This document shows, piece by piece, positions 6,992 through 64,000 of a DNA stretch of 64,000 nucleotides. How positions within the stretch are numbered: position 1 is the stretch's first letter; every line of letters starts with the position of its first letter. This DNA comes from Streptococcus ictaluri 707-05 (GTDB lineage: Bacteria > Bacillota > Bacilli > Lactobacillales > Streptococcaceae): the NCBI RefSeq assembly GCF_000188015.2, contig NZ_AEUX02000007.1, forward strand, positions 310,001 through 374,000, read 5' to 3'. The position numbers were made by a program, and so were the translations under genes. The notes under the pieces were generated by a model. The model ran no database searches. It was not told the DNA's origin and saw only the letters and a list, made by a program, of their open reading frames with translations.

Positions 6992-7953
6992 ACCCGTGGT
7001 GCTAGTTAATCTCAAAATACAATAAAAAGCCCAAAAGGACTATACTGTAAGTGCCTACACAAACAGGAGGTTAGTCCAAATGAGCCACTTACAGTATACA
7101 GCTAAATCCCATCACTTACAATGGAATATGCGTCAATTATCAAAAATTTGTTCTCAGTTTTATCAAGATTATTGTCCGGAAGACTTCAAACACCGTCGTA
7201 ACGTCTGTCTGTCCAAAGTTTCAGACCAATCTCTTCTAGTTTTACTGCTATTACAAGCTGAACTAGGTATTAAATCACAACGTCACTTTTATAGGATTTG
7301 TCAGCTATTTCCCTGCGGTACATTACTAGAAAGAAGTCGCTTTAATAGGCGTGCAAGACAGTTGATTTGGCTGGTTCAAGTGATTCGTCAGGCAATGAAC
7401 ACTCAAATTTCTCCCAATACCATTGTTATTATAGACAGCTTTCCTTTGCCACTTTGTCAATCTATTCGTAACCACAGGGTCAGACTTTTCAATGGGATAG
7501 CTAATATTGGTTACACCGCCTCTAAACATATGTGGTTTTACGGTTTTAAGGTTCACATGCTAGTGACCTTATCAGGCTACATTCTGAATTATGTTGTCAG
7601 CCCAGCCTCTGTTCATGATATTAAGGCAGTTTACGAGTTGCTAGAAAGGTGTGAACAATCCGTCATTTTAGCAGACTTAGGTTACCTTAACCGTGAGCTG
7701 AAAGATGAGTTGAAGCAAAATGGCTATCACCTCTGGACTCCCTTGCGTCAAAATATGGAAGGGGCTAAACAGCATAATCATTGGAAACTAATGGCTATGA
7801 GACGAACCATTGAGACTAGATTTTCAGAACTTTGTTCCCTTTTTGATATGGAACGAACACTGGATAGGGGCATGACAGGGCTGCAATTGAGGATTGAACA
7901 AATCATACTAGCTTACAATTTGAGATATTTTGAAATTAACTAGCACCATGGGT
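6992..7953 (+). mobile_element. IS982-family insertion sequence, copy 1
   Basis: 962-bp element with terminal inverted repeats ACCCGTGGTGCTAGTTAAT (left) and its near-match ending CTAGCACCATGGGT (right). It is flanked by a perfect 7-bp target duplication GTTATTT at 6985-6991 and 7954-7960. It carries one intact transposase gene. It inserted downstream of the rpsI terminator. Confidence 0.95.
7080..7943 (+). CDS. IS982-family DDE transposase (copy 1)
   Basis: 287 residues covering nearly the whole IS. It has the DDE transposase layout of this family: IVIIDSFPLPLCQSIRNHR holds the first aspartate, LADLGYLNRE the second, and RRTIETRFSELCSLFDMER the catalytic glutamate. Its start follows an AGGAGG ribosome site. 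The frame is intact and its protein is identical to copy 2, so both insertions are recent and potentially active. Confidence 0.95.
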   Translation: MSHLQYTAKSHHLQWNMRQLSKICSQFYQDYCPEDFKHRRNVCLSKVSDQSLLVLLLLQAELGIKSQRHFYRICQLFPCGTLLERSRFNRRARQLIWLVQVIRQAMNTQISPNTIVIIDSFPLPLCQSIRNHRVRLFNGIANIGYTASKHMWFYGFKVHMLVTLSGYILNYVVSPASVHDIKAVYELLERCEQSVILADLGYLNRELKDELKQNGYHLWTPLRQNMEGAKQHNHWKLMAMRRTIETRFSELCSLFDMERTLDRGMTGLQLRIEQIILAYNLRYFEIN

Positions 7954-10046: not shown

Positions 10047-11008
10047 ACCCATGGTGCTAGTTAATTTCAAAATATCTCAAATTGTAAGCTAGTATGATTT
10101 GTTCAATCCTCAATTGCAGCCCTGTCATGCCCCTATCCAGTGTTCGTTCCATATCAAAAAGGGAACAAAGTTCTGAAAATCTAGTCTCAATGGTTCGTCT
10201 CATAGCCATTAGTTTCCAATGATTATGCTGTTTAGCCCCTTCCATATTTTGACGCAAGGGAGTCCAGAGGTGATAGCCATTTTGCTTCAACTCATCTTTC
10301 AGCTCACGGTTAAGGTAACCTAAGTCTGCTAAAATGACGGATTGTTCACACCTTTCTAGCAACTCGTAAACTGCCTTAATATCATGAACAGAGGCTGGGC
10401 TGACAACATAATTCAGAATGTAGCCTGATAAGGTCACTAGCATGTGAACCTTAAAACCGTAAAACCACATATGTTTAGAGGCGGTGTAACCAATATTAGC
10501 TATCCCATTGAAAAGTCTGACCCTGTGGTTACGAATAGATTGACAAAGTGGCAAAGGAAAGCTGTCTATAATAACAATGGTATTGGGAGAAATTTGAGTG
10601 TTCATTGCCTGACGAATCACTTGAACCAGCCAAATCAACTGTCTTGCACGCCTATTAAAGCGACTTCTTTCTAGTAATGTACCGCAGGGAAATAGCTGAC
10701 AAATCCTATAAAAGTGACGTTGTGATTTAATACCTAGTTCAGCTTGTAATAGCAGTAAAACTAGAAGAGATTGGTCTGAAACTTTGGACAGACAGACGTT
10801 ACGACGGTGTTTGAAGTCTTCCGGACAATAATCTTGATAAAACTGAGAACAAATTTTTGATAATTGACGCATATTCCATTGTAAGTGATGGGATTTAGCT
10901 GTATACTGTAAGTGGCTCATTTGGACTAACCTCCTGTTTGTGTAGGCACTTACAGTATAGTCCTTTTGGGCTTTTTATTGTATTTTGAGATTAACTAGCA
11001 CCACGGGT
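10047..11008 (-). mobile_element. IS982-family insertion sequence, copy 2 (inside hsdM)
   Basis: 962-bp element in reverse orientation to copy 1, same ends, flanked by a perfect 7-bp duplication ATGGTTT at 10040-10046 and 11009-11015. The intact duplication shows simple insertion without later rearrangement at this site. Confidence 0.95.
10057..10920 (-). CDS. IS982-family DDE transposase (copy 2)
   Basis: 287-residue transposase with the same protein sequence as copy 1, including IVIIDSFPLPLCQSIRNHR, LADLGYLNRE and the glutamate in RRTIETRFSE. Intact and in the opposite orientation to hsdM. The two identical 962-bp copies form an inverted repeat around 7954-10046. Confidence 0.95.
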   Translation of the reverse strand: MSHLQYTAKSHHLQWNMRQLSKICSQFYQDYCPEDFKHRRNVCLSKVSDQSLLVLLLLQAELGIKSQRHFYRICQLFPCGTLLERSRFNRRARQLIWLVQVIRQAMNTQISPNTIVIIDSFPLPLCQSIRNHRVRLFNGIANIGYTASKHMWFYGFKVHMLVTLSGYILNYVVSPASVHDIKAVYELLERCEQSVILADLGYLNRELKDELKQNGYHLWTPLRQNMEGAKQHNHWKLMAMRRTIETRFSELCSLFDMERTLDRGMTGLQLRIEQIILAYNLRYFEIN

Positions 11009-21286: not shown

Positions 21287-22572
21287 ATGAATACGATAGA
21301 AATTCCCTGGTTTGCGGCTATCTTTGGTTTATTGTTGGCTATTTTTTTAATTTTAAAAAACTCAATCCTGTTTATTCCCTATTTTTAGGGGCAATTGTAG
21401 GAAGTTTGATTGGTGGCGTATCACTGGCAGATACAGTAACCATTTTGATTACAGGGACACAAAGTATCATGGGAACGGCTGTTCGTGTCTTGGCGGCTGG
21501 TTTATTAGCGGGTGTCATGATGGAATCAGGAGCTGCTGAGTCGATTGCCCATGCCATTGTGACTAAATTAGGTGAGAAAAAGGCTATTTTATCCTTGGCC
21601 TTGTCAACTATGATTATCACATCCGTTGGTGTGTTTATTCCTGTAGCGGTACTAATTGTAGCACCGGTAGCCCTATCTGTTGGTAAGCAAACGGGAATTG
21701 GTAAGCTTGCTTTACTAACTGCTCTATCTGGAGGCGGAAAGGCAGGGAATATTATCTCTCCTAATCCAAATACAATTGCTGCGGCAGAAGGTTTTCATTT
21801 AAATCTCAGTGATGTGATGTTAGCCGGTTTTATCCCTGCTATTTTTGGCCTTTTGACGGCAGTCTTGGTGGCAAATCTGATTAAGCATAAGGGCATTCCA
21901 GTTTTAGAGAAAGATATTGATCTTGTTGAAGAGAAAAGCTTGATGCCTTTGAAGAAGGCTTTGGTAGCACCTTTGTTAGCTATTTTCTTGCTCTTGCTCA
22001 ATCCTATTGGTAATCTGTTGCAGTTAGGCTTTATTCAGGATTTGAAAATTGATGCCCTTTATATTTTACCTTTAGCTTCGGTTATTGGAACTTTAGCTAT
22101 GGGGCATGGTAGGAAATTAAAAGATTATGCTTCGGCAGGGTTGAAGCGTGTAACGGATACGGTTTTGATTTTAATCGGAGCAGGTGCTATTGCAGGATTG
22201 ATTTCTTCATCTGATTTGTCTGCTCAGGTAGTGCATTTAATTGATACCATTGGTATTTCAGGAAGCTTTTTAGCTCCTATTTCAGGGGTACTGATGGGAC
22301 TGGCGGTAGGTTCTACTTCAACGGCAGTCATTTTAGCCACAGGATCCTTTGGACATGCTATTTTAGATACAGGTGTTGCACCTTTATCAGCAGCTGTTAT
22401 GGTTCATACGGGAGCTACTGTTATTGATGGGGTTCCTCAAGGTAATTATTTCCATATCACTGCGGATAGCATGAAAATGTCCATTAAAGAACGCTTACAA
22501 GTCATGCCTTTTGAAATCTGTGTCGGTGGTGTTATGACGATTGTAGCGATTATACTGTCAAGCTTTGGTTAG
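21287..22572 (+). pseudogene. GntP/GlxP-type gluconate/glycerate permease, frameshifted
   Basis: ATG 21287, behind ATAAGGAG, begins a membrane protein (MNTIEIPWFAAIFGLLLA) that loses frame at a run of six As (21355-21360). Seven As would give ILKKLNPVYSLFLGAIVG and join the long open frame to 22572. About twelve hydrophobic segments and the pattern GAIAGLISSSD and GLAVGSTSTAVILATGS are typical of GntP-family organic-acid:H+ symporters. The gene ends just before a glycerate kinase, so glycerate is the likely substrate. The frame from 21406 alone would miss the first helices. Confidence 0.85.
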
Positions 22573-22585
22573 GAGGAGAGACGAA

Positions 22586-23709
22586 ATGCCTAAAAAATTT
22601 GTACTAGCACCAGATTCTTTCAAAGAAAGCATGTCTGCCAAAGAAGTCTGCCACCACATGTCACTTGGAATTAAAAAAGTCATGCAAGATGCCGAGATTG
22701 TTCAGGTACCAATGGCTGACGGAGGTGAAGGTACTGTTGATGCCACAGGCGGACAAAAAATTCCTGTTCAAGTATCAGGTCCCTTTCCCGAAGAGAAGAT
22801 TTATACCTATTTTGGTTTACTAGGAGACGGTCAAACGGCTGTCATTGAAATGGCTAAAGCTAATGGTATTGGCTTGCTATCTAAAGAAAAGCGAAATCCT
22901 CTCAAGACATCCACTTTTGGGACTGGCCAACTTATCTTAGCGGCTCTAGATTATGGGGTTAAGAAAATCATCATTGGAATAGGGGGCAGCGTCACAAATG
23001 ATGGCGGTGCTGGTATGGCAGCGGCATTGGGTGCCCGCTTCCTTGACGCTTCTCATGAAGTGATTCCTTTTGGTGGTGGCTATTTATCAGAATTGGCCCA
23101 TATTGATGTCTCAAACCTTTACAGTCGTTTAGAAGATGCATTGCTTCAGATATGACCAATCCTTTGACAGGTCCAACAGGGGCTTCAAGAGTCTTTGGTC
23201 CCCAAAAAGGAGCCGATCCAGAGATGGTTGAGCAACTAGATGATAACTTGAAGCATTATGCAGCTCTTATTAGACAAGACTTGGGAGTTGATATTGAACT
23301 GATTCCAGGAGCAGGAGCTGCTGGTGGTTTAGGAGCGGGACTACTAGCCTTTACCAATGCTTCTTTAAGACCAGGAATTGATATTGTTATTGATGTGACA
23401 GGACTAGAAGAACATATTAAAGCAGCTGATTATGTCTTTACCGGAGAAGGTGGCATGGATTTCCAAACCAAATTTGGAAAGGCTCCTTATGGCATCTCTA
23501 AGTTAGCCCAAAAGCACCAGAAACCTGTCTTTGCTTGTGCAGGCTACATTGGTGAAAAAGTTGACGTTTTATACGATGAAGGAATGACTGCTATTTTCGG
23601 AATTCTGTCTAAAACAGGAAGCCTGGAAGAAGCGCTTAAACAGGGCAAAGAAAATATTGAGAGAACCGCAGAGAATATTGCGCGTGTCTTATTAGTGGCC
23701 AACCAATAA
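22586..23709 (+). pseudogene. garK: Glycerate kinase, frameshifted
   Basis: ATG 22586 follows AGGAGGAG. Family sequence is clear: KFVLAPDSFKESMSAKEV, PMADGGEGTVDATGG, GIGGSVTNDGGAGMAAALG in the first half, and FGPQKGADPEMVEQLDDNL, GAGAAGGLGAGLLAF, YVFTGEGGMDFQTKFGKAPYG in the second. The enzyme phosphorylates D-glycerate. The frame breaks near 23145 before ASDMTNPLTGPTGA; comparison from memory with E. coli GarK suggests a deletion of about 10 bases there and four missing residues after DGGEGTV. The kinase is very likely dead. Confidence 0.9.
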
Positions 23710-23870
23710 TTCACTTCGGTATCCCTCCGTTTCATAAGAAGTGACAATGGGGTTCTAAATCCATCAAGCCTAAAAAGCATGCTATAATAAAGAATAGTTA
23801 GTAAAAACTAGGGTTGAGTTGTGAAGAGCAAGGTAAAGAGATGATTTAGGGTTAGAAAATAGAGGGTATC

Positions 23871-24897
23871 ATGCAAAGTTTAGACCAGTCACAAGCACAG
23901 ATTATTGTGGATCGTTTGATGGAAGATATTCCCTACAATATCAATATCATGGATCGTTTTGGGAAAATCATTGCAAGTGGTGATAAGAAAAGAATCAGAC
24001 AGCAGCATTATGCAGCTGAACAAGCTATCAAAACAAAAGATAGGATTGATGTCTTTAAAGATTCTAGATATGCTAAAAAAGGAACCAATGAGCCCATCGT
24101 TTACAAAGGTGAGCTACTTGGTGTGGTTGGCATTAGTGGAGAACCAAATGAGGTTGGTCCCTTCACTAAAATTGTGAGTTCAATCGTTTATTTGCTAGTT
24201 CAGGAGATGCAGGATTATCGTTATCTCCAAAAAATGAAAAATCAAAAGAACTGTTTTTTGAATCAGCTCTTAGACTACAATAGTTCGGAAAATTACAGTG
24301 ATAGCTTAGTTAGTCAAGGTTTAGTTTTTTATCAATTAAATTTATTGGTAGACAATAGATGTGTCTTAAGTCAGAACAAAGACCTGATTCGAGACTTAGC
24401 CGGTGACTGTGCTCTATTTCATTACAAAGACTTTTATTTCTTTTTGAGCGACACCATCACTCCGCATCAATTGGAGGAGCAATGGCGTCTTCGCCAGAAG
24501 ACTTCTTTAGTGATTATCAGTCAAGCCAAATCTTCTATTTAAAGAAGCTGTAGAAGAAGCCAGTCTTGCTTGGTCGGTGGCGGATTTCTTTAAACTAGGC
24601 GACCAGCTCTTTCAGGCCCAGGAGATTCCTTATTTGTTTGTTTTTGATTTAGCGGAGCGTGTGGATGATGATATTTTAAGTAAGGTAGATGCGATCTATT
24701 CCGATTACTATGAAACCTTAATCGTTTTTGCTAAGGAAAATAGTAATTATTTGAGGACTTCTCAAAAGCTACATATCCATCGAAATACCCTTAGTTATCG
24801 GTTAAATCGCATAAAAGAAGAGACAGGATTAGATCCCTGTCTGTGGTACCAACTAACTCGATTACTTTACTATTTTAGTTTGTCTTATTTAAAATAG
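23871..24897 (+). pseudogene. cdaR: CdaR-type sugar-diacid/glycerate regulator, frameshifted
   Basis: The first part (23871-24542) is the CdaR N-terminal sensor domain: AQIIVDRLMEDIPYNINIMD and GKIIASGDKKRIRQQHYAAE. The frame breaks near 24540 (AKSSI stop); shifting resumes KEAVEEASLAWSVADFFKLG and runs to the C-terminal PucR-type helix-turn-helix LRTSQKLHIHRNTLSYRLNR. The family activates organic-acid genes on binding glycerate or diacids, which fits the adjacent permease and kinase. The break separates sensor from DNA-binding domain, so regulation is lost. Confidence 0.85.
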
Positions 24898-25121: not shown

Positions 25122-27031
25122 ATGATGAATATTAGACAACGTAATGTCTTAATCCAACTTTTAGGCTTGAATGATTATGTTAGCGGTCAAGCTCTAGCCG
25201 GTCAGTATAAGGTTTCAAGTAAAACCATTTATGCTGATTTAAAGAGATTAGAAACTCTCTTAGAGAGGGAAGGTTTACAGTTAGTGCGCCTACCTAGGCA
25301 TGGTATCAAAATAGAAGGGACTTATTTTCAAAAAGAGAAATTAAAAAATCAGCTGACTGACTGGAAAGATACCACAAATAATAAGGACTTCCAAGAACGT
25401 GAAAAAGATTATCTAAGAAAACTTTTTTTAGAAACTCAAGCCCTCGTGGTGGCAGACCTTTCAGAAGATTTTTATTTGAGCGAAACTTCTGTTAGACGAG
25501 ATCTGGATAAACTCGAGAAAACGATACTCACTCACGGTATTCGATTAATGAGAGCAAATGGTAGCCTCATGCTTGAAGGGGAAGAAACAGAGCTACGTAA
25601 TTACCTTAGGTATGTCTTGCTTGAAGGCTCACAAAACGCTAAGTCAAAACAAAATGAGCTTACATTTTTAAGTACTTTCTTTCTGGATGAGAAGGTTGAG
25701 TTGCTTTTACTATTCCAGATAATCATTTAATTTATTTGTTAGTGGATCTTTTAATTGCTAAGTCGCGAATTAGTTTAGGTTATGGTTTAAAAAAGGCAAA
25801 AGGAGGTATAGAAGAAGATATTCGAAGATTTGAAGTCTACCTTTTTGCAGGGGATTTGCTAAGTCGAAGTTTAGGAATCCCTTTGGAAGAAGTTTCTGAT
25901 CAAGAAATCACTCAGCTAGCCTTTACTATTTTATCGATTGGTTACACCAAAGAGAATCATACAGGCAGTCAGTTTGAGCGTCTTGCTATTCAGTTAATTG
26001 ACAAGGTCAGTGACCTATCTGAGATTGATTTTAATAATGATTCTTATCTTCAAGATATGATTGCCAATCACATGCGTCCCATGCTTTATCGTTTGAAAAA
26101 TGACATTAAAATTGAAAACCAGACCACAGAAGAAATCAAAAAGCGCTATTCCATCTTATTCAATATGGTGTGGTTAGCTTCTAAAATTGTTTCAGATCAG
26201 TACGACTTACAATTTTCGGATGCAGAGATTGCTTTTTTGACCATTTACTTTGAAATTGCAGTGGAAAAATTGGAAAAACCTTTAGTGATTTATGTGGTTT
26301 GTCCTCATGGTTTAGCCACATCAGAATTGATTATGAACACCTTGCGTCAAATGCTCTCACCTTTTGATCATCTCAAGAAAATTGAGTTATCAGAAGTCAC
26401 TGAAGCACAAGTGGCTAAAGCGGATATCTTAATTAGTTCAGTTGTCCTAGAAGCTGTTAATCAAAACTATATTTTAGTTAGCCCCCTCTTAACGCGACAA
26501 GAAACCGAGAAAATTCAAATGGCTTACCAAGAGTTAAGAGACGGTAATCGTAAAATGTTATCACTGATTAATGATAAGCATCACCTTAACCACTCAGTGA
26601 TTCGAAGTCTAGTGGATGACAATCTTTATTTACGTCAACAACTATTAGATAAAGAAGCAGCTATTTCTTTTTTGGTAGAGCAAGGTAGCACTGTTAATAA
26701 TGCTAGCCCTAGATACTTAGCATCAATCATAGCACGAGAGGCTATGGGAAGTACCAGTGTTTGTACAGGAGTAGCTTTGCCACATGCCGCCCCCGAACAC
26801 GTCAGTCAATCTCAATTGATGTTGATGAGCTTAGAAGAACCTATCTTATGGGGGACAAATTGGGTTAGCCTAATTATCCTGATTGCAATCAAAGAAGGTG
26901 AAGAAGAAAGGTACAAAGATGCTTTGATTTATCTTTATTCCAAAATTGATGATAGGGATTTTATTGATACTTTGGCAAAGATGGAGGATGAGGATTTATT
27001 TATGAAAACATTATTTGAAAAGGAGACATGA
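25122..27031 (+). pseudogene. PRD-containing PTS-controlled activator (MtlR/BglG class), frameshifted
   Basis: ATG 25122 behind GAAGGGAG. N-terminal winged HTHs (SGQALAGQYKVSSKTIYADL and LSEDFYLSETSVRRDLDKLE) are followed by a break near 25712: one missing base or equivalent in CTTTTACTATTCC separates them from PDNHLIYLLVDLLIAKSR. The second frame (25736-27031) holds the PRDs, an EIIB-like domain (VCPHGLATSELI) and an EIIA-like domain (GVALPHAAPEHV). The family activates PTS operons by phosphorylation state. The lesion uncouples DNA binding from sensing, so the downstream operon may be mis-regulated or silent. Confidence 0.88.
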
Positions 27032-27032
27032 T

Positions 27033-27491
27033 ATGGATGAAGAGTTGGTTTTTCTTCAAGTTGAGAAAAACAAAGATCAAACAGAAGTCTTAAGAACCTT
27101 AGCAAAAGCACTTTTTGATAAAGGTTTTGTGAAAGAAGGATTTAGCCAAGCCGTCATTGAAAGAGAAAAGAGTTTTCCAACAGGACTTCAGTTTGAAGGT
27201 TATGGCATAGCTATTCCACATACAGATAGTTATTATGTTAACCAAACACAATTGGCAGTGATGACCTTGAAAGAGCCGGTTTACTTTACTCAAATGGCGA
27301 CGCAAGAGGAAAAAGGAGCTGTTCGTATTGTGATTATGTTGGCAATTAAGGAGGCCCATGGGCAACTTGATATGTTACAAAAACTAATTGGCTTATGCCA
27401 AGATTCTGACTTGGTGCAAGAAATGTTGTCCTTTCAACAAGATGATAGTCAGAAATTGTTAACCTTATTGCAGAAGCATCATATTATTTAG
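27033..27491 (+). CDS. PTS galactitol-type EIIA component
   Basis: 152 residues from ATG 27033, chosen because AAAAGGAGA lies just upstream and an in-frame TTG at 27015 overlaps that site and the previous gene. It is a PTS_EIIA type 2 domain with the phospho-histidine in GYGIAIPHTDSYY. It receives phosphate from HPr and passes it to EIIB (28838). Length and the separate A, C and B genes fit the galactitol/fructose-like families. The upstream regulator stop is one base away, so the genes are coupled. Confidence 0.9.
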   Translation: MDEELVFLQVEKNKDQTEVLRTLAKALFDKGFVKEGFSQAVIEREKSFPTGLQFEGYGIAIPHTDSYYVNQTQLAVMTLKEPVYFTQMATQEEKGAVRIVIMLAIKEAHGQLDMLQKLIGLCQDSDLVQEMLSFQQDDSQKLLTLLQKHHII

Positions 27492-27500
27492 GAGGTTGTT

Positions 27501-28838
27501 ATGTTTGACATACTGCAAAGTTTTATTGATTTAGGAGCAATCGTTGTTCTACCTGTCTTAATTTTTATTTTCGGACTCTTACTTGGAACACCTGCCAGAA
27601 AGGCTTTCAATGCGGGCTTAATCGTTGGGATTGGATTTGTTGGTTTAAATCTAGTTGTGGAGTTATTGTCTGGTAGTTTGGGTAAAGCGGCTCAAGCTAT
27701 GGTGGAACGTTTTGGACTTCAGCTGACTACTCTTGATGTTGGGTGGCCTGCAGCAGCAGCCATTTCATATGGAACCTTGTTAGGCAGTCTGGCAATTCCT
27801 CTTGGGATTGGAATCAATATTCTATTATTGTTTATAGGATGGACAAAAACCTTAATGGTTGACATGTGGAATTTCTGGCATGCCGCTTTTGTGGCGTCAC
27901 TAGTATATGCGGTAACCCATAGTTTTGCGCTTGGTTTGTACGCTATGGTGACCTATCAAGTGATGATTTATCTTTTAGCAGATATTATTGCACCAGCTAT
28001 CAAACGCTTCTATGGATTTCCTAACATTACTTTCCCACACGGTACTTCAGCTCCAGGATTTTTAGTGGCTATTCCTTTGAACTGGCTCTTTGATAGAATT
28101 CCGGGATTTAATAAGATTGAGGCTGATCCAGAAACCATTCAGAAAAAATTCGGTATTTTCGGTGAAAGCACAGTAATGGGGTTGATGATAGGAATCGTTA
28201 TTGGCTTGCTAGCAGGATATGATATGCAAGGAACCCTTCAGCTAGGAGTCAAAACGGCAGCTGTAATGCTTTTGATGCCTCGTATGGTTTCAGTCTTAAT
28301 GGAAGGTTTGGCACCTATTTCAGAGGCTGCTAATAACTTTGTTCAAAAACGCTTCCCAGGTCGTGAAGTCAATATCGGCATGGATTCAGCTTTATCTGTC
28401 GGCCATCCAGCTGTTTTATCAAGTTCCCTTTTGTTAGTTCCGATTACCATATTATTAGCAGTAGTCCTACCAGGAAATACAACATTACCGTTTGGAGACT
28501 TGGCAACCATACCGTCTGTGGTGTGTTTGATGGCAGCAGTTTTCAGAGGAAATATCATTCGAACTGTAGTCGGTGGTTCCCTCTATATGGTGTCTATTTT
28601 GTACATTACGTCTTGGGCAGCTCCGCTAGTAACTTCAGCTGCTAAAGCAGCCAAATTTAATTTAGAAGGGCATTCTCGTATCACAGCTATGGCAGAAGGT
28701 GGACTTTGGCCAACAGGACTATTTATTGCCGCTGCTAATTATTGGCCATGGGTATTTATTTCTCTGATTTTAATCATTTCTCTAGCAGGGCTTTATATGG
28801 TTAATCATTCTAAAACAAATAAAAGTGAGGTAAACTAA
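27501..28838 (+). CDS. PTS galactitol-type EIIC permease
   Basis: 445 residues with about ten membrane helices and the GatC pattern: RKAFNAGLIVGIGFVGLNL near the N terminus, SYGTLLGSLAIPLGIGINI and RFYGFPNITFPHGTSAPGF. EIIC forms the sugar channel. RBS AGGAGG precedes the ATG, nine bases after EIIA. It overlaps the EIIB start by one base. The substrate is probably a hexitol or pentitol-like sugar alcohol, inferred from the GatC family and the aldolase downstream. Confidence 0.9.
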   Translation: MFDILQSFIDLGAIVVLPVLIFIFGLLLGTPARKAFNAGLIVGIGFVGLNLVVELLSGSLGKAAQAMVERFGLQLTTLDVGWPAAAAISYGTLLGSLAIPLGIGINILLLFIGWTKTLMVDMWNFWHAAFVASLVYAVTHSFALGLYAMVTYQVMIYLLADIIAPAIKRFYGFPNITFPHGTSAPGFLVAIPLNWLFDRIPGFNKIEADPETIQKKFGIFGESTVMGLMIGIVIGLLAGYDMQGTLQLGVKTAAVMLLMPRMVSVLMEGLAPISEAANNFVQKRFPGREVNIGMDSALSVGHPAVLSSSLLLVPITILLAVVLPGNTTLPFGDLATIPSVVCLMAAVFRGNIIRTVVGGSLYMVSILYITSWAAPLVTSAAKAAKFNLEGHSRITAMAEGGLWPTGLFIAAANYWPWVFISLILIISLAGLYMVNHSKTNKSEVN

Positions 28839-29122
28839 TGAAAAAATTACTAGTAATGTGTGGCTCTGGAATTGCAACGTCAACAGTAGTGATGGGGAAA
28901 GTAAAGACTTGGCTACAAGAAAATGGCTACCAAGATCAGGTTCAACTTTATCAATCAAAGATTGCTGAGGAAATCAATCATATTGATGATTATGACATTG
29001 TTATTTCAACAACTGTCGTCCCTGACCAAGTCAAAGACAAGGTTATTATGGGATTGCCTTTATTAACTGGAATAGGAACAGAGCCCTTATGGGCAGAGGT
29101 TAAAAAAGAAATCGAGGCCTAA
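28838..29122 (+). CDS. PTS galactitol-type EIIB component
   Basis: 94 residues beginning MKKLLVMCGSGIATSTVVMG. The cysteine in CGSGIATS is the phospho-acceptor of the lactose/galactitol EIIB fold. It transfers phosphate from EIIA to the incoming sugar bound by EIIC. Its start overlaps the EIIC stop (TAATG), and the aldolase starts two bases after its stop, so the operon is tightly packed. Confidence 0.9.
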   Translation: MKKLLVMCGSGIATSTVVMGKVKTWLQENGYQDQVQLYQSKIAEEINHIDDYDIVISTTVVPDQVKDKVIMGLPLLTGIGTEPLWAEVKKEIEA

Positions 29123-29124
29123 CC

Positions 29125-29967
29125 ATGCGAGTGAGTATGTCAGCCCTTCTTAAGGCGGCGCAAAAAGGGCATTATGCTATTCCCGCCATGAATTTTATTG
29201 ATTTTAATAGTGCTAAAGCCTACGTTGAAGCAAGTGAAGAAAAAGATTTGCCACTCATATTGGCGTTTGCCCAGTCTCATAGTGACTGGCTTAGCCTAGA
29301 AGAGGCGGCAGCAATCGGACGATACTTTCAAGAAAAAGCAAAAACACCAATTGTGCTTCATTTAGATCACGGACAAGATAGTGCTTTTATTAAAAAAGCT
29401 ATTTCACTAGGTTTTAATTCGGTTATGATTGATGCTTCTTTGGATAGTTTTGATAAAAATGTTAGAAAAACCAAAGAAGTGGTAGCTTATGCTCAGTCTC
29501 ATCAAGTAGCTGTTGAAGCTGAGATTGGCTTTGTGGTAGCTAATGAAAATTTAGAAAATCACAAGAAAATAGAGTCGATTTATACTGAGGTATCGGTAGC
29601 AAAAGCTTTTTTTCAAGAAACCCAAGTTGATTCTTTAGCGGTATCTATTGGAACAGCTCACGGGATTTATAAAGGAAGGCCTCACCTTAATTTTCAACGT
29701 TTGCATGAAATAGCACAAGAACTTCCAATTCCACTAGTCTTACATGGAGGTTCCTCATCAGGAAATCAGAATTTAAAACGATGTTCCCAAGAAGGGATAG
29801 CTAAGATTAACATCTTTTCTGACGTCATGGCAGCAGCCTATCAAAAAAGTCGTGATTCTGCCGCTTATGATTACCCTAGCCTTAATCGAGCTATGATAGA
29901 AGCTATGAAATCAGTGCTCATACATTATTATGAGGTCTTTGGAACGAAAAAGGAGCTGAGTTTATGA
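29125..29967 (+). CDS. Class II ketose-bisphosphate aldolase (GatY/KbaY-like)
   Basis: 280 residues of the class II FBP/TBP aldolase family: zinc ligands in VLHLDHGQD and in the distal GTAHGIY and LHGGSSSG; NFIDFNSAKAYVEASEEK at the N terminus. It probably cleaves a ketose 1-phosphate or 1,6-bisphosphate made from the PTS product to DHAP and an aldehyde. It is distinct from the housekeeping fba at 59728. ATG 29137 is an alternative start; neither has a strong ribosome site, consistent with coupling to EIIB. Its stop overlaps the next start. Confidence 0.88.
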   Translation: MRVSMSALLKAAQKGHYAIPAMNFIDFNSAKAYVEASEEKDLPLILAFAQSHSDWLSLEEAAAIGRYFQEKAKTPIVLHLDHGQDSAFIKKAISLGFNSVMIDASLDSFDKNVRKTKEVVAYAQSHQVAVEAEIGFVVANENLENHKKIESIYTEVSVAKAFFQETQVDSLAVSIGTAHGIYKGRPHLNFQRLHEIAQELPIPLVLHGGSSSGNQNLKRCSQEGIAKINIFSDVMAAAYQKSRDSAAYDYPSLNRAMIEAMKSVLIHYYEVFGTKKELSL

Positions 29968-30686
29968 CAAAAAAATGTTGCCCAAACTTTTTTATCTTTA
30001 ATCCTAAGTCCTACTTATATGGGGAAGCATTACTTGAATTAGCAGAGCTAGCAGATAGCTTAGTGGAGGAAACAATCAGCATTTTTGTGACAGGACCCTA
30101 TGTTAGCTTACCTGCTATGAAAGCGAGAACGAAACAGATTATAGTAACAGCTCAACATTTAGATGGCATAGAGCCTGGAGCAGGCATGGGCAAAGTACTA
30201 CCCGCTTCTTTGGTGGATGCGGGGGTTGATGCCGTTTTCTTAAATCATGCTGAGAAGCCATTGACACTTGCAGAGTTAGTAGAAGCCTTAAAAGCAACTA
30301 AAAGGTATGGGTTACTTTCCATTGTATGTGCTAATTCAGTTGAGGAAGCACGTGCCATTGTATGTGCTAATTCAGTTGAGGAAGCACGTGCCATTGCTAT
30401 GCTTAACCCGGATATCATTTTGTGTGAACCAACAGAACTCATTGGTACAGGAAAAAGAAGCGATTTATCCTATATAAAAGAAACTAACCAAGCCATAAAA
30501 AGTGTTAATCCAGATATTCTTATCATGCAAGCGGCAGGTATTAGTAGTGCAGAGGATGTTTACATAACCTTAAAAGCAGGTGCGGATGGTACAGGCTGCA
30601 CTAGCGGCATAGTCAAAGCACCATCTCCAAAAGCAATACTAGAAGAAATGGTTGCCGCCCTAAAGCAAGCAGTAAAGGAGAGGTAG
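29964..30686 (+). CDS. Triosephosphate isomerase-like protein (archaeal-type) with an internal duplication
   Basis: 240 residues. The glutamate motif LCEPTELIGTGKRS and the end GADGTGCTSGIVKA match the shorter, archaeal-type TIM subgroup rather than the housekeeping bacterial TIM. It would interconvert triose phosphates from the aldolase. A perfect 36-bp tandem repeat at 30321-30392 duplicates IVCANSVEEARA, adding 12 residues in the barrel before the active-site strand. The frame survives, but folding may be affected. ATGA overlap (29964-29967) couples it to the aldolase. Confidence 0.8.
   Translation: MTKKCCPNFFIFNPKSYLYGEALLELAELADSLVEETISIFVTGPYVSLPAMKARTKQIIVTAQHLDGIEPGAGMGKVLPASLVDAGVDAVFLNHAEKPLTLAELVEALKATKRYGLLSIVCANSVEEARAIVCANSVEEARAIAMLNPDIILCEPTELIGTGKRSDLSYIKETNQAIKSVNPDILIMQAAGISSAEDVYITLKAGADGTGCTSGIVKAPSPKAILEEMVAALKQAVKER
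30321..30392 (+). repeat. Perfect 36-bp tandem duplication in the TIM-like gene
   Basis: Unit starting ATTGTATGTGCTAATTCAGT occurs at 30321-30356 and again at 30357-30392 without a mismatch. In-frame gain of 12 codons. Confidence 0.95.
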
Positions 30687-31204
30687 ATGGTCATTTTTCA
30701 AAAAAACATCCTATAAAAACAGTAGCTGCTAGAGATAGCTACCATGATATAACAACATTAGTAGCAGAATCTATTAAAGAAAGTGGTATTCAAACAGGAA
30801 TCTGCCTTATTCATAGCCCACATACCACCTGTTCCATTTTTTATGAAGAATACACGCATGATGATTACAATGGGGATGATTACCTCTCGCTTGACTTATC
30901 AAAGAAACTTGAGAAAATGATTGAGCCACACCTTTCCAAAGATAGTTACTACTATCCTGGTCCCAAACACTATGAAGCAGTAGAAGCTTGGCCTCATCCA
31001 GAGCAATGGTTACCAAATGGTGATAAGAAAGCTTTGTGGAATGGCGATGCACATCTAAAAGTAATCTTAATCAGTTCTAGTCAAACTGTTCCAATAAGTA
31101 AGGGTAAACTTTCGTTTGGCAAAACAGGATATCTCTATTTTGTTGATTTCGATAGAACTAGAGAAAGGGAACGCTTTTTTCAACTAACGATAATGGGAGA
31201 ATAG
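30687..31204 (+). pseudogene. YjbQ/UPF0047-family protein, frameshifted at its start
   Basis: ATG 30687 has a strong AAAGGAGAGG site but stops after MVIFQKNIL. One missing base near 30711 would join this to KTVAARDSYHDITTLVAES in the other frame, which then runs open to 31204. The body carries the family pattern LIHSPHTTCSIFYEEYTHDD, WNGDAHLKVILISSSQTVPI and GKLSFGKTGYLYFVDFDRTR, with conserved histidines and aspartates. Members have weak thiamine-phosphate synthase activity in vitro; the true role is unclear. Its place at the end of a PTS-aldolase operon suggests a metabolic repair or sugar-phosphate role. Confidence 0.82.
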
Positions 31205-31262: not shown

Positions 31263-32426
31263 CGCAAGTTGTCAAGTCAAGTGCAACCAGTTCATAGATA
31301 ACTAGAGTTCCAGATGTTAAGCTGTTCGGGATAGCTCAAACAGGAATTTTGAGGATTGATATTGAAGAAGTCGTCTTGGGCGCTCATTGATGGCAGTAAT
31401 ATAATTGTCAAGTTCTTCAGAGGTTAGTGGATTAAGTGAGACTCCTTTAGGGACATATTCTCTGAGGAGGCCATTGAAGTTCTCGTTTGTTCCTCTCTCA
31501 TGTGAAGAATAGAGATGTGCAAAGTAAACTTCAACAGCTTCTAAGTTTGAGAGTAAACTAAACTCAGAACCATTATCCGCTGTGATGGATGCAATAGGAT
31601 ACTGACTGATGAGATGCGTGACAGCACGGTTAATGGTTTGGGACTGCTTGTCTTCTAGCTTAACTCCTAGTGCATAGCGTGTCTGGCGCTCTACCAAAGT
31701 CAACATAACAGCTTCACCTTTGGTTTTCTTGCCGAGAACCAAATCAATCTCCCAATGCCCAAATTCAGAACGATCATTAATATATTCTGGACGTTCTTCG
31801 ATAGATTTACCTAAAGTCTTCTTATTCGTCTTCATGACTTTCTTAGAACGTTTTCTGATACTAACCATCTTAGGCAAATCGATTGGTTTAATAGCTAATA
31901 CCCCCTCTTTGATATAACGATAAATCGTTTTGGTAGAGGGGACGACTTCTTCAGGATGGTTCACTTTGTAAGTCTGAACAAAACTATCCACACTATGGAG
32001 ACGAATGTTAGCCGTCAAGGCAGATTCTAATTGTTCAATGAACCTAGCGGAGCAGTCATTCAACTTGAGATAAGAACTCTTTTGACGATTGGTTTCATAG
32101 ACACGTTGCCCACTATCAGCGAAATAGGCGTTGAAGAAGGTTTGTTTTCCATTCTTATCCTTTACCTGTTCTACTGAACCACGTTTTATTTCTCGGCAGA
32201 TTGTAGAACGGTGACGACCCAAGAGTCGAGCAATCTCAGCGGGTTTCTTTCCCATTTTAAGATAAGCAGCAATTTCACCCCGTTCTGTGGCTGAAAGATG
32301 AGAATAGGATGATTTTCTGGTAGAATTAATGTTGGACATGTTCATCTGCTTTCCATACTGAATTGGGGAATTCTAGTATATCAGACGAACATGTCTTTTT
32401 TGTTGCACTTCATTTTACAACGCGGG
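31263..32426 (-). mobile_element. IS30-family insertion sequence (IS1239-like), copy 1
   Basis: 1164-bp element with imperfect inverted ends CGCAAGTTGTCAAGTCAAG (left) and CAACGCGGG (right, read on plus). The 13-mer AAATAAAAATTTT lies on both sides (31250-31262 and 32427-32439), which looks like a long target duplication. The right end is 25 bases from the rrn -35 box. Confidence 0.9.
31317..32345 (-). CDS. IS30-family transposase (copy 1)
   Basis: 342 residues. N-terminal HTH of the IS30 type (LSATERGEIAAYLKMGKKPA, then RLLGRHRSTICREIKRG), followed by the DDE core: GHWEIDLVLGKK (first Asp), SITADNGSEF (second Asp) and SSHERGTNENFNGLLREY (Glu). Reading frame intact to SRTA. This copy appears functional and is read away from the rrn operon. 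Confidence 0.95.
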   Translation of the reverse strand: MNMSNINSTRKSSYSHLSATERGEIAAYLKMGKKPAEIARLLGRHRSTICREIKRGSVEQVKDKNGKQTFFNAYFADSGQRVYETNRQKSSYLKLNDCSARFIEQLESALTANIRLHSVDSFVQTYKVNHPEEVVPSTKTIYRYIKEGVLAIKPIDLPKMVSIRKRSKKVMKTNKKTLGKSIEERPEYINDRSEFGHWEIDLVLGKKTKGEAVMLTLVERQTRYALGVKLEDKQSQTINRAVTHLISQYPIASITADNGSEFSLLSNLEAVEVYFAHLYSSHERGTNENFNGLLREYVPKGVSLNPLTSEELDNYITAINERPRRLLQYQSSKFLFELSRTA

Positions 32427-47018: not shown

Positions 47019-47980
47019 ACCCGTGGTACTAGTTAATCTCAAAATACAATAAAAAGCCCAAAAGGACTATACTGTAAGTGCCTACACAAACAGGAGGTTA
47101 GTCCAAATGAGCCACTTACAGTATACAGCTAAATCCCATCACTTACAATGGAATATGCGTCAATTATCAAAAATTTGTTCTCAGTTTTATCAGGATTATT
47201 GTCCGGAAGACTTCAAACACCGTCGTAACGTCTGTCTGTCCAAAGTTTCAGACCAATCTCTTCTAGTTTTACTGCTATTACAAGCTGAACTAGGTATTAA
47301 ATCACAACGTCACTTTTATAGGATTTGTCAGCTATTTCCCTGCGGTACATTACTAGAAAGAAGTCGCTTTAATAGGCGTGCAAGACAGTTGATTTGGCTG
47401 GTTCAAGTGATTCGTCAGGCAATGAACACTCAAATTTCTCCCAATACCATTGTTATTATAGACAGCTTTCCTTTGCCACTTTGTCAATCTATTCGTAACC
47501 ACAGGGTCAGACTTTTCAATGGGATAGCTAATATTGGTTACACCGCCTCTAAACATATGTGGTTTTACGGTTTTAAGGTTCACATGCTAGTGACCTTATC
47601 AGGCTACATCCTGAATTATGTTGTCAGCCCAGCCTCTGTTCATGATATTAAGGCAGTTTACGAGTTGCTAGAAAGGTGTGAACAATCCGTCATTTTAGCA
47701 GACTTAGGTTACCTTAACCGTGAGCTGAAAGATGAGTTGAAGCAAAATGGCTATCACCTCTGGACTCCCTTGCGTCAAAATATGGAAGGGGCTAAACAGC
47801 ATAATCATTGGAAACTAATGGCTATGAGACGAACCATTGAGACTAGATTTTCAGAACTTTGTTCCCTTTTTGATATGGAACGAACACTGGCTAGGGGCAT
47901 GACAGGGCTGCAATTGAGGATTGAACAAATCATACTAGCTTACAATTTGAGATATTTTGAAATTAACTAGCACCATGGGT
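47019..47980 (+). mobile_element. IS982-family insertion sequence, copy 3
   Basis: 962-bp element with the same ends as copies 1 and 2 and a 6-bp duplication AATATT at 47013-47018 and 47981-47986. It differs from the other two by a few bases, including GGTACTAG instead of GGTGCTAG in the left end, so it is an older or separate arrival. Confidence 0.93.
47107..47970 (+). CDS. IS982-family DDE transposase (copy 3)
   Basis: 287 residues, intact. It differs from copies 1 and 2 by one residue near the C terminus (ERTLARGMTG instead of ERTLDRGMTG) and silent changes. Catalytic motifs are conserved. Confidence 0.95.
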   Translation: MSHLQYTAKSHHLQWNMRQLSKICSQFYQDYCPEDFKHRRNVCLSKVSDQSLLVLLLLQAELGIKSQRHFYRICQLFPCGTLLERSRFNRRARQLIWLVQVIRQAMNTQISPNTIVIIDSFPLPLCQSIRNHRVRLFNGIANIGYTASKHMWFYGFKVHMLVTLSGYILNYVVSPASVHDIKAVYELLERCEQSVILADLGYLNRELKDELKQNGYHLWTPLRQNMEGAKQHNHWKLMAMRRTIETRFSELCSLFDMERTLARGMTGLQLRIEQIILAYNLRYFEIN

Positions 47981-50564: not shown

Positions 50565-51728
50565 CCCGCGTTGTAAAATGAAGTGCAACAAAAAAGACAT
50601 GTTCGTCTGATATACTAGAATTCCCCAATTCAGTATGGAAAGCAGATGAACATGTCCAACATTAATTTTACCAGAAAATCATCCTATTCTCATCTTTCAG
50701 CCACAGAACGGGGTGAAATTGCTGCTTATCTTAAAATGGGAAAGAAACCCGCTGAGATTGCTCGACTCTTGGGTCGTCACCGTTCTACAATCTGCCGAGA
50801 AATAAAACGTGGTTCAGTAGAACAGGTAAAGGATAAGAATGGAAAACAAACCTTCTTCAACGCCTATTTCGCTGATAGTGGGCAACGTGTCTATGAAACC
50901 AATCGTCAAAAGAGTTCTTATCTCAAGTTGAATGACTGCTCCGCTAGGTTCATTGAACAATTAGAATCTGCCTTGACGGCTAACATTCGTCTCCATAGTG
51001 TGGATAGTTTTGTTCAGACTTACAAAGTGAACCATCCTGAAGAAGTCGTCCCCTCTACCAAAACGATTTATCATTATATCAAAGAGGGGGTATTAGCTAT
51101 TAAACCAATCGATTTGCCTAAGATGGTTAGTATCAGAAAACGTTCTAAGAAAGTCATGAAGACGAATAAGAAGACTTTAGGTAAATCTATCGAAGAACGT
51201 CCAGAATATATTAATGATCGTTCTGAATTTGGGCATTGGGAGATTGATTTGGTTCTCGGCAAGAAAACCAAAGGTGAAGCTGTTATGTTGACTTTGGTAG
51301 AGCGCCAGACACGCTATGCACTAGGAGTTAAGCTAGAAGACAAGCAGTCCCAAACCATTAACCGAGCTGTCACGCATCTCATCAGTCAGTATCCTATTGC
51401 ATCCATCACAGCGGATAATGGTTCTGAGTTTAGTTTACTCTCAAACTTAGAAGCTGTTGAAGTTTACTTTGCACATCCCTATTCTTCACATGAGAGAGGA
51501 AAAAACGAGAACTTCAATGGCCTCCTCAGAGAATATGTCCCTAAAGGAGTCTCACTTAATCCACTAACCTCTGAAGAACTTGACAATTATATTACTGCCA
51601 TCAATGAGCGCCCAAGACGACTTCTTCAATATTAATCCTCAAAATTCCTGTTTGAGCTATCCCGAACAGCTTAACATCTGGAACTCTAGTTATCTATGAA
51701 CTGGTTGCACTTGACTTGACAACTTGCG
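50565..51728 (+). mobile_element. IS30-family insertion sequence (IS1239-like), copy 2
   Basis: 1164 bp, same ends as copy 1 in the opposite orientation. The flanks, TTCAAAAT before and TAGGCTTATT after, share no direct repeat, and the integrase stops exactly at its left end. This fits an adjacent deletion by the IS that removed the rest of the integrase and one island end. Confidence 0.9.
50646..51674 (+). pseudogene. IS30-family transposase (copy 2) with a premature stop
   Basis: Identical in layout to copy 1, but CAA at codon 330 has become TAA (51633-51635), which removes the last 13 residues (QSSKFLFELSRTA). It also has K instead of T in the ERGTNEN motif near the catalytic glutamate, and P for L in the AHPYSSHERG segment. 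The DDE residues remain, so residual activity cannot be excluded. Confidence 0.85.
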
Positions 51729-60865: not shown

Positions 60866-60896
60866 ATAAACTAATTAATTGAAAGTGAGAGTCATT

Positions 60897-62096
60897 ATGG
60901 TAAAAGAAACATTAATATTAGCTTATTCAGGTGGTCTAGATACGTCAGTTGCTATCGCTCGCTTAAAAGAAGATTATCAGGTAATAGCTGTCTGTATGGA
61001 TGTCGGTGAGGGTAAAGATTTAGATTTTATTCATGACAAAGCCTTACGAGTGGGAGCAAGTGATTCTTATGTTATTGATATCAAAGAAGAATTTGCGACG
61101 GATTATGTTTTACCAGCTCTTCAAGCACATGCTTTTTACGAACAAAAATACCCGCTAGTCTCAGCTCTAAGTCGTCCTGTTATTGCTAAGAAATTAGTGG
61201 AAATAGCTCACGAGAAGGGGGCATCTTATATTGCTCATGGCTGTACAGGAAAAGGAAATGACCAAGTTCGTTTTGAAGTTGCCATCGCAGCACTAGATCC
61301 AGATATTAAAGTCATTGCCCCTGTTAGAGAGTGGTAGTGGTCTAGGGAAGACGAAATCGCTTATGCTATTGCCAATAATGTTCCGGTACCTGCTGATCTT
61401 GATAGTCCCTACTCTGTTGATCAGAATTTGTGGGGTCGTGCTAATGAATGTGGGGTTTTAGAAAATCCGTGGCATCAAGCGCCTGAAGAAGCGTATGATA
61501 TTACGGTTTCACCTGAGGAAACGCCTAATAAGGCAGAATACCTTGATATTCATTTTGAAAAAGGTGTCCCTGTAGCTCTCAATGGCGAAGCCATGGCTTT
61601 GTCTGATTTGATTTTGACGGTCAATAAAATAGCAGGAGCCCACGGTGTTGGTCGAATTGACCATGTCGAAAATCGTTTAGTGGGTATTAAGTCTCGTGAA
61701 ATTTACGAGTGCCCAGGAGCTGTAACCCTATTAGCAGCTCATAAAGATATTGAAGATTTGACGCTGGTTAGGGAATTATCACACTTTAAACCAATCATTG
61801 AAAATGAATTGTCACAGCTAATATACAATGGTTTATGGTTTAACCCGGCTACCCAAGCTCTAATGGCTTATATCAAAGCAACACAGGAACAGGTTAACGG
61901 TATTACTAAAGTAAAATTATACAAGGGACAAGCTCAAGTGGTAGCACGTCGATCTGATAATTCTCTTTATGACGAAAAGTTAGCGACTTACACAGCGGCG
62001 GACAGCTTTGATCAGGAGGCGGCAATTGGTTTTATCAAACTCTGGGGCTTACCAACACAAGTCAATGCTCAAGTTAATAAAACACAGCTACAGTAG
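60897..62096 (+). pseudogene. argG: Argininosuccinate synthase with an internal amber
   Basis: ATG 60897 gives the family N terminus [20 protein letters not shown] (ATP pyrophosphatase loop SGGLDTS). The frame is open for 399 codons to 62096 except TAG at 61335-61337 in PVREW-stop-WSREDE, where relatives have K or Q. The rest is normal: [40 protein letters not shown]. The enzyme joins citrulline and aspartate. The truncated product ends before the citrulline site, so arginine synthesis from citrulline is probably lost although argH is intact. Confidence 0.93.
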
Positions 62097-63578: not shown

Positions 63579-64000
63579 CCCGCGTTGTAAAATGAAGTGC
63601 AACAAAAAAGACATGTTCGTCTGATATACTAGAATTCCCCAATTCAGTATGGAAAGCAGATGAACATGTCCAACATTAATTCTACCAGAAAATCATCCTA
63701 TTCTCATCTTTCAGCCACAGAACGGGGTGAAATTGCTGCTTATCTTAAAATGGGAAAGAAACCCGCTGAGATTGCTCGACTCTTGGGTCGTCACCGTTCT
63801 ACAATCTGCCGAGAAATAAAACGTGGTTCAGTAGAACAGGTAAAGGATAAGAATGGAAAACAAACCTTCTTCAACGCCTATTTTGCTGATAGTGGGCAAC
63901 GTGTCTATGAAACCAATCGTCAAAAGAGTTCTTATCTCAAGTTGAATGACTGCTCCGCTAGGTTCATTGAACAATTAGAATCTGCCTTGACGGCTAACAT
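63579..64000 (+). mobile_element. IS30-family insertion sequence (IS1239-like), copy 3, partial
   Basis: Begins with the end CCCGCGTTGTAAAATGAAG and matches copy 2 base for base over most of its length; the right end is outside the window. It lies 69 bases after argH in the same orientation as copy 2. Confidence 0.92.
63660..64000 (+). CDS. IS30-family transposase (copy 3), partial
   Basis: Starts at ATG 63660 and runs off the window after 113 complete codons. The HTH region (LSATERGEIAAYLKMGKKPA, GRHRSTICREIKRG) is identical to copy 1, including the STRKSS start where copy 2 has FTRKSS. Catalytic part not visible. Confidence 0.92.
   Translation, partial: MNMSNINSTRKSSYSHLSATERGEIAAYLKMGKKPAEIARLLGRHRSTICREIKRGSVEQVKDKNGKQTFFNAYFADSGQRVYETNRQKSSYLKLNDCSARFIEQLESALTAN

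Follow-up and report, generated by a model that had tools for sequence, protein, structure and literature searches.

Several described systems resemble parts of a sugar operon that lies at positions 25122-31204 of a 64,000-nucleotide stretch of Streptococcus ictaluri 707-05 (contig NZ_AEUX02000007.1; hereafter, the window). They include the phosphotransferase system (PTS) for galactitol and tagatose (GatABC, GatD, and GatYZ); the archaeal-type triosephosphate isomerases (TIM; PRK04302/NF003302, structures 1hg3 and 2h6r); the UPF0047/YjbQ family, whose profile TIGR00149 is named "secondary thiamine-phosphate synthase"; and two proteins of Brucella, the TIM-family erythritol/erythrulose isomerase Q2YIQ6 and DXR-II/DRL (3upl/3upy). 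In addition, the dihydroxyacetone phosphate (DHAP) shunt of 5-deoxyribose ends with the cut of 5-deoxypentulose 1-phosphate into DHAP and acetaldehyde. The operon encodes, all on the forward strand, a PRD regulator in two pieces, the PTS proteins IIA, IIC, and IIB, a class II (DHAP) aldolase (ALD), an archaeal-type TIM homologue, and a long UPF0047/YjbQ protein. We found that the last three genes (the trio) are a real conserved module of many bacteria. We propose, with a probability of about 0.4, that the trio breaks down a five-carbon deoxy-sugar phosphate by a pathway through 1-deoxyxylulose 5-phosphate (DXP).

The operon beside its described relatives

Like the galactitol/tagatose system, the operon has an EIIC-GAT family IIC (27501-28838; PF03611, 290 bits), a IIB (28838-29122; PF02302), a galactitol/fructose-type IIA (27033-27491; PF00359, 113 bits), and a protein of the class II aldolase superfamily (29125-29967; PF01116, 274 bits; TIGR00167 above cut-off). 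In contrast to that system, its IIC, IIB, IIA, and aldolase all score below the system's cut-offs, and TIM and YjbQ are added. For the IIC, the galactitol-specific profile TIGR00827 gave 445.7 bits against a cut-off of 542.2; for the aldolase, the tagatose-bisphosphate profile TIGR01858 gave 206 bits against 443.55. No gene for a galactitol-1-phosphate dehydrogenase or a tagatose-6-phosphate kinase was found within 25122-31204. These scores and absences rule out the galactitol/tagatose pathway, in keeping with the initial annotation, which had called the operon something other than the classic one. The same annotation had given the places, order, and overlapping starts of the genes, and the coordinates and profile matches agree: base 28838 is common to IIC and IIB, and bases 29964-29967 are common to ALD and TIM. 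A chimeric origin was considered for the operon, as its IIC is 93% and its IIA 53% identical to the S. uberis proteins; it was rejected, since three other genomes give the same contrast, which looks like differing constraint.

The TIM gene (29964-30686; PF00121) surpasses the curated cut-off of NF003302 (175.7 vs. 132 bits), confirming its assignment to the archaeal type. Archaeal TIMs are its best relatives in the PDB, and the catalytic Lys, His, and Glu are common to both: all three are present in 85/85 relatives and in the window copy. However, where 1hg3 has NFKTY and PGSHTG, most relatives of the window TIM carry NPKSY and, in loop 3, PGRGMG. Unlike the archaeal enzymes, the relatives' TIM coexists with a canonical TIM (seven genomes tested) and usually resides in an operon with YjbQ. 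Brucella Q2YIQ6 is likewise a TIM-family protein, and its sugar phosphate substrate is said to exceed a triose in size; the Brucella protein is annotated in erythritol use, whereas the window TIM is accompanied by an aldolase and YjbQ. The match of the window TIM to 11ef covers part of the sequence (E 2.5e-5).

The long YjbQ (about 30687-31204; PF01894, 84.7 bits vs. a cut-off of 27; TIGR00149, 69 vs. 67.75) shares the fold of its family, but its branch is longer and is found in sugar operons. In relatives, the protein has ~173 residues, ~35 more than the usual UPF0047/YjbQ protein. The AlphaFold model of the S. uberis protein (pLDDT 96.4) has the YjbQ fold, with a Z score of up to 18.8 to 1vmj. 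Nine solved UPF0047 members aligned to it with Z scores of 15.7-18.8 in VIA-align, and the other folds listed, with Z scores below 5, did not rise above background and speak neither for nor against kinship. The titles of these nine structures give no function beyond one putative label, that of a thiamin phosphate synthase. Seven residues are invariant in 50 sequences of the long branch (His46, His58, His96, His124, Glu54, Glu55, and Asp59), a set that suits a putative metal-dependent isomerase.

A module of aldolase, TIM, and YjbQ

The distribution of the three genes in Streptococcus was examined in 147 genomes. The archaeal-type TIM (at least 46% identity) occurred in 12 of them, and the same 12 held the aldolase at E 1e-70 or better and the long YjbQ at E < 1e-87 (two weaker YjbQ matches, one partial, lay elsewhere). 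This shared distribution exceeds chance. Across 256 genomes of the order, TIM was present in 34, YjbQ in 37, and ALD in 35; every TIM genome had YjbQ (34/34) and nearly every one had ALD (32/34), so that all three were present in 32. A phylum-wide draw found the long YjbQ in 12/398 genomes.

A scan of named genomes for TIM yielded 138 matches, and the analysis used the 80 best loci. The presence of TIM, YjbQ, and ALD at a locus was judged within the fetched stretch from open reading frame (ORF) calls, with the TIM of L058 read separately; the named and unnamed collections overlap, duplicates included (e.g., L070/L178, L072/L126, L082/L127, and L042/L116 are the same places). Among these best 80 of 138 loci, 68 had all three genes, tightly packed on one strand in 66. 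The remainder comprised three loci with TIM and YjbQ without ALD, one with TIM and an ALD-like paralogue some genes off, and eight with TIM alone. Carriers of the trio were found in Streptococcus, Enterococcus, Tetragenococcus, Halolactibacillus, Thermoanaerobacterium, Gilliamella, Vibrio, and a spirochaete metagenome-assembled genome (Brevinema), and the genes occur in two orders, Tetragenococcus having TIM-YjbQ-ALD. Literature searches on YjbQ together with TIM, aldolase, or PTS returned no title or abstract opening that joined them.

The incomplete loci bear on the order in which the enzymes act. Taking both collections, seven loci had TIM and YjbQ without ALD in the stretch (L058, L072, L082, and L144-L147); in the genomes of L072 and L082 (G251 and G306), no aldolase of the trio family was found genome-wide at E 1e-70. 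Two loci (L116 and L043) had TIM and an ALD-like protein (36-37% identical) without YjbQ, and three (L129, L132, and L133) had a trio-family ALD with neither TIM nor YjbQ beside it; in the two of these three that were checked, L129 and L132, ALD adjoins a fructose-type IIABC. The incomplete loci thus tend to keep TIM and YjbQ and to lose ALD (7 vs. 2), which counts against a TIM whose sole task is to deal with the triose phosphates that ALD releases. A dedicated isomerase for triose phosphates had been suggested in the initial annotation; in a reading of this kind, cleavage would give DHAP and an aldehyde or glyceraldehyde 3-phosphate (GAP), TIM would be simply a triosephosphate isomerase, and YjbQ would be auxiliary. 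The invariant catalytic residues, the NF003302 score, and the co-occurrence of TIM and aldolase in 69/80 named loci all speak for this arrangement. But it leaves unexplained the seven TIM-YjbQ loci without this aldolase and the three aldolase loci without TIM, and a canonical TIM was also present in 7/7 genomes tested; moreover, loop 3 is unlike that of archaeal TIMs. A dedicated isomerase is the reading least consistent with the incomplete loci, and we consider it decidedly improbable; as a dedicated glycolytic TIM, the protein was rejected, given the canonical TIMs and the persistence of TIM-YjbQ without ALD. TIM probably acts before the cleavage.

Lone archaeal-type TIMs were seen in Trichococcus and Sedimentibacter (L074, L075, L076, L078, L085, L086, L087, and L089). 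That they are the main TIM of their hosts was rejected: three genomes with a lone TIM were tested, and 3/3 have a canonical TIM as well.

YjbQ also occurs without TIM, in G331 and in three Gat IIABC loci with an RPE-like epimerase and HxlB, a 6-phospho-3-hexuloisomerase (L124, L130, and L131; HxlB above cut-off in two of the three). Three further loci (L145-L147) have TIM-YjbQ-HxlB-RPE; L145, the one checked, has a fructose-type IIBC nearby. These six HxlB-RPE loci appear to be other pathways that employ the long YjbQ. Because its partners are sugar-phosphate isomerases, epimerases, and aldolases, YjbQ is likely a sugar-phosphate enzyme itself. Its variety of companions (ALD and TIM, RPE and HxlB, or TIM without ALD) could also befit a mutarotase or helper for furanose phosphates, with the chemistry left to TIM and ALD; small mutarotases are known from sugar operons. 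The presence of YjbQ twice in L058 and in L079/L096 sits poorly with a helper, which would moreover leave the C2-C3 shift of the DXP scheme presented below without an enzyme, and we give this option little credence.

Two unusual arrangements of these genes were observed. In Murdochiella (L058, 8604-11199), TIM is flanked by two long YjbQ genes; upstream lie Dak1, FGGY-kinase, and L-ribulose-5-P-3-epimerase-like genes and, by eye, an ABC transporter, making this a non-PTS version. Genome G271, which has a full Gat-trio (L136), contains TIM and YjbQ once more at L137 (4564-5668), where the TIM is truncated.

In the aldolases, the motifs HLDHG, GTAHG, and LHGG, which mark the metal and DHAP sites, were present in 74-75 of 75 aligned sequences. 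The DPR motif of KbaY, whose Arg we take to hold the distal phosphate, is a different matter: Arg is absent from this position in all 67 trio-adjacent ALDs, and the 3/75 aligned aldolases that have it are all at Tetragenococcus loci, away from the trio. The missing Arg suggests that the aldehyde product of the trio's ALD is probably unphosphorylated. We also considered ALD as a bypass for an absent transaldolase and rejected the idea; TAL_FSA was present in 35 of 46 genomes with module genes (both ALD-less genomes and 33 of the 44 others), a count that is uninformative. Since 4-epimerase activity is reported for class II aldolases (PMC5434028, in excerpt), it is possible that ALD acts as a 4-epimerase.

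Two feeding systems and a proposed route through DXP

What does the trio receive? The 66 tight trios fall into 33 with a Gat-only PTS, 20 with a Gut-type PTS (three of them also with Gat genes), and 13 with neither in the stretch. The DXR-II-like oxidoreductase DRL (PF21135) was found within the fetched stretch in 18/20 Gut trio loci and in 0/33 Gat-only loci; the operon in the window has none. The confinement of DRL to Gut loci argues that a redox step was added along with the polyol-type PTS. One locus (L065) has Gat genes, trio, Gut genes, and DRL in a single cluster. Read most simply, the two PTSs supply the trio with one and the same compound, with one oxidation required first when the PTS is of the polyol type.

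Twelve Gat operons (L053, L069, L079, L099-L101, L103, L109, L112, L115, L119, and L123) hold only the PTS, a regulator, and the trio in their gene run (L079 with a second YjbQ); others hold further genes. As these twelve contain nothing else, the PTS product must lie within reach of the trio and housekeeping enzymes. Most IIC proteins associated with the trio belong to three clades separate from the one associated with a dehydrogenase; the two IICs whose operons encode a dehydrogenase in addition to the trio group within that one.

The character of DRL was assessed by its residues. Those that separate DXR-II, which converts DXP to methylerythritol phosphate (MEP), from the DLO families have been named; in the same source, a 2013 survey, four DLO members failed complementation, DXP/MEP activity is reported for 11 other members of the DXR-II family, and DXR-II is placed in two Firmicutes without the MEP pathway (PMC3847144, in excerpt). 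On alignment to Brucella DRL, six named residues could be placed, and all of them (G121, K191, K193, T229, H250, and R320 in Brucella numbering) are kept in 26/26 trio-associated DRLs, duplicates included. The Gut-type relatives thus share the diagnostic residues of Brucella DXR-II, but their DRL adjoins a PTS and either the trio or a complex like pyruvate dehydrogenase (PDH), often where no IspF was found. Nineteen genomes (of ungiven completeness) with DRL at such loci were searched for IspF, which marks the MEP pathway; none turned up in 13, and so DRL hardly serves isoprenoid synthesis in them. Near five Enterococcus trios (L046, L049, L056, L059, and L064) we noted a weakly TIM-like protein of ~224 residues that lacks the catalytic Lys and is directly 5' of DRL in three of the five. 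The one tested had no Pfam or NCBIfam match and matched a TIM profile weakly (probability 61).

A scan of 309 genomes of the phylum for DRL gave 33 places in 29 genomes. Thirty-one were fetched, and the two others are L141 and L143, which have Gut genes and all three trio genes. DRL was called in 29/31 fetched places, with Gut genes near in 16. In 13 of these 16 there are E1-alpha and E1-beta genes for a complex of the pyruvate/acetoin-dehydrogenase type, and a 14th has E1-alpha at a contig end; the trio is also present in only one of the 13. When all 148 loci were compared, the E1 pair was found in 14/56 with DRL and in 0/92 without it, and E1-alpha directly adjoins DRL in 11/15 loci (E1 family assignment was by profile for three loci and by similarity for the rest). 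Gut-DRL is therefore followed by either the trio or the E1/E2 complex; the two occur together at a single place, counted as two loci because both collections include it. The clusters of Gut PTS, DXR-II-like DRL, and E1/E2(/E3) come from diverse Bacillota (L178, L180-L182, L184, L188-L192, L194, L195, and L200); in L195, Gat IIB-IIC-IIA lie behind the cluster. By known thiamine pyrophosphate chemistry, an acetyl-transferring complex of this kind fits a methyl ketone with a neighboring hydroxyl, such as DXP.

From what was computed, namely gene content, the module, the TIM-YjbQ link, the restriction of DRL to Gut loci, and the alternative E1/E2 complex, we infer substrates, reactions, and a direction for DRL. 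In the Gat version, that of the window, the PTS would import and phosphorylate a free deoxy-ketose, 1-deoxyxylulose. In the Gut version of the relatives, it would import the matching polyol, 2-C-methyl-D-erythritol, and DRL, a DXR-II type working in reverse, would convert MEP to DXP. The long YjbQ would then shift the carbonyl from C2 to C3, and the TIM homologue from C3 to C4, next to the CH2-O-phosphate, as TIM does on DHAP and GAP. The resulting 5-deoxy-ketopentose 1-phosphate would be split by ALD in a retro-aldol reaction to DHAP, which would enter glycolysis, and acetaldehyde, which would be reduced to ethanol. This final cut would be the same as that of the DHAP shunt of 5-deoxyribose, with a different aldolase family and entry route. 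Where the PDH/acetoin-dehydrogenase-like complex replaces the trio, it would cut DXP at the same C2-C3 bond to give acetyl-CoA and GAP; the trio would make that cut without oxidation, in fermenters. That three steps are matched by three enzymes counts in favor of the scheme. In its specific form, in which the Gut and Gat PTSs converge on DXP, to be cut at C2-C3 by complex or trio, the long YjbQ is a new ketose-phosphate isomerase, and DXR-II is catabolic rather than biosynthetic, we hold the proposal tentatively. The broader suggestion of the initial annotation, that an unusual sugar phosphate is handled, is likely.

Several observations weigh against the DXP route. IspF is present in 6/19 DRL genomes, both Anaerococcus included, and some DRLs outside trio loci adjoin Gat genes and a transaldolase-like gene (L183, L186, and L193). 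Only 5/12 DRLs beside an E1/E2 complex without the trio keep H250. The E1-alpha tested has pyruvate dehydrogenase E1 as its closest relative in the PDB, and pyruvate may therefore be the substrate of the complex. YjbQ is missing from 9/80 named TIM loci (the eight lone TIMs and L116), the RPE-HxlB loci suggest that YjbQ and TIM also serve other sugars, and G251, with Gat-TIM-YjbQ, would need another aldolase. The direction from MEP to DXP is putative for DRL, and in the literature searched none of the trio enzymes was reported to act on these compounds; nor was such catabolism of MEP intermediates described, in searches that were not aimed at the catabolism of methylerythritol or deoxyxylulose.

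Two other substrates were weighed against this evidence. With an ordinary pentulose 5-phosphate, YjbQ and TIM would yield a pentulose 1-phosphate, ALD would split it to DHAP and glycolaldehyde, and DRL would oxidize a pentitol phosphate. This would agree with the RPE, RpiB, and TKT near some Gut-type trios; with AraD-like proteins (L066; L080 and L104 by similarity); with the XylB-like kinase and GutQ-like SIS isomerase of L144 and the L-ribulose-5-P 3-epimerase of L058; and with the Gat-type PTS reported for D-arabitol (PMC6685057, in excerpt). The DXR-II marks on DRL and the acetyl-transferring complex behind Gut-DRL would, however, be left unexplained. Pentulose 5-phosphates have simpler known routes, and on balance we regard this substrate as unlikely.

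Alternatively, the PTS could deliver erythrulose 1-phosphate, which TIM would convert to erythrulose 4-phosphate and YjbQ, in place of RpiB, to erythrose 4-phosphate for the pentose phosphate pathway. The Brucella TIM homologue is indeed annotated as an L-erythrulose-1-phosphate isomerase (PMC12542623, in excerpt; also the name of PDB entry 11ef), and PTSs for tetroses are termed unreported in an excerpt of PMC12780249. Suitable neighbors exist too: the TIM of L116 lies with RpiB, TKT, TAL, and, by eye, DhaKLM, and L058 has Dak1, an FGGY kinase, and an AP_endonuc_2 protein. On the other hand, a tetrose leaves the aldolase, which accompanies TIM and YjbQ in 68/80 loci, without a clear job; with TAL_FSA as common as noted above, ALD is no simple substitute for transaldolase, and the acetyl-transferring complex behind DRL misfits. 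We think a tetrose quite unlikely.

If true, the DXP route would provide the first physiological reaction for a branch of UPF0047/YjbQ, a second substrate for a branch of archaeal-type TIM, and a task for DXR-II where bacteria lack the MEP pathway. It would also identify sugars that the isoprenoid metabolism of plants and microbes could offer to bacteria. Whatever the substrate proves to be, a conserved trio with two feeding systems allows the question to be tested with a handful of purified enzymes.

Damage to the operon and its surroundings

The regulator of the window is divided into an N-terminal piece of PRD/Mga type (25122-25730; PF08279, HTH_11, and PF05043, Mga) and a C-terminal piece with PRD and EIIA_2 domains (25736-27031; PF00874 and PF00359), the latter sharing 55% identity with the regulators of L032-L034, each of which is in one piece. 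The intact regulator of L032 matches the window in two frames, which reveals a frameshift. YjbQ is frameshifted near its start: a relative's YjbQ matches from 30695 in one frame only, and the likely start is outside that frame. The relatives' proteins therefore bear out the earlier claim that both genes are broken. TIM had been taken as whole, and in this the initial annotation was mistaken. A 36-bp tandem duplication (30314-30349 / 30350-30385) adds 12 residues that are absent from 12 other aligned TIMs, and the window copy has Ala where 85/85 relatives carry Arg or Lys. Three genes of the operon (regulator, TIM, and YjbQ) are thus damaged in this strain. The copy is therefore probably nonfunctional, and its biology has to be read from relatives. 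As the initial annotation expected, relatives with one-piece genes exist, e.g. in Streptococcus pseudoporcinus (L045) and Enterococcus mundtii (L112). In S. uberis CAIM 1894 (L044, 4167-6166), the PRD regulator is likewise in two ORFs and the operon is otherwise whole.

Other genes in the window are split as well (22565-23709, 23871-24897, and 60879-62096). Both glycerate kinase and argininosuccinate synthase are in two pieces, and a CdaR-like regulator looks split too; its first piece matches CdaR, and no match was found for the second. Together with the split regulator and YjbQ, these point to genome decay or to base errors in the assembly, which has 8 contigs and 2.23 Mb. A glycerate-use cluster (21406-24897) immediately precedes the sugar operon and comprises a GntP-like transporter, the broken glycerate kinase, and the CdaR-like regulator; 3' of the sugar operon are an IS30 copy and an rRNA operon. 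The window has IS982 copies at 7080-7943, 10057-10920, and 47107-47970 and IS30 copies at 31317-32345, 50646-51635, and 63660-64000, the last of which runs past the window's end. One copy of each element was identified directly and the others by their equal or nearly equal starts.

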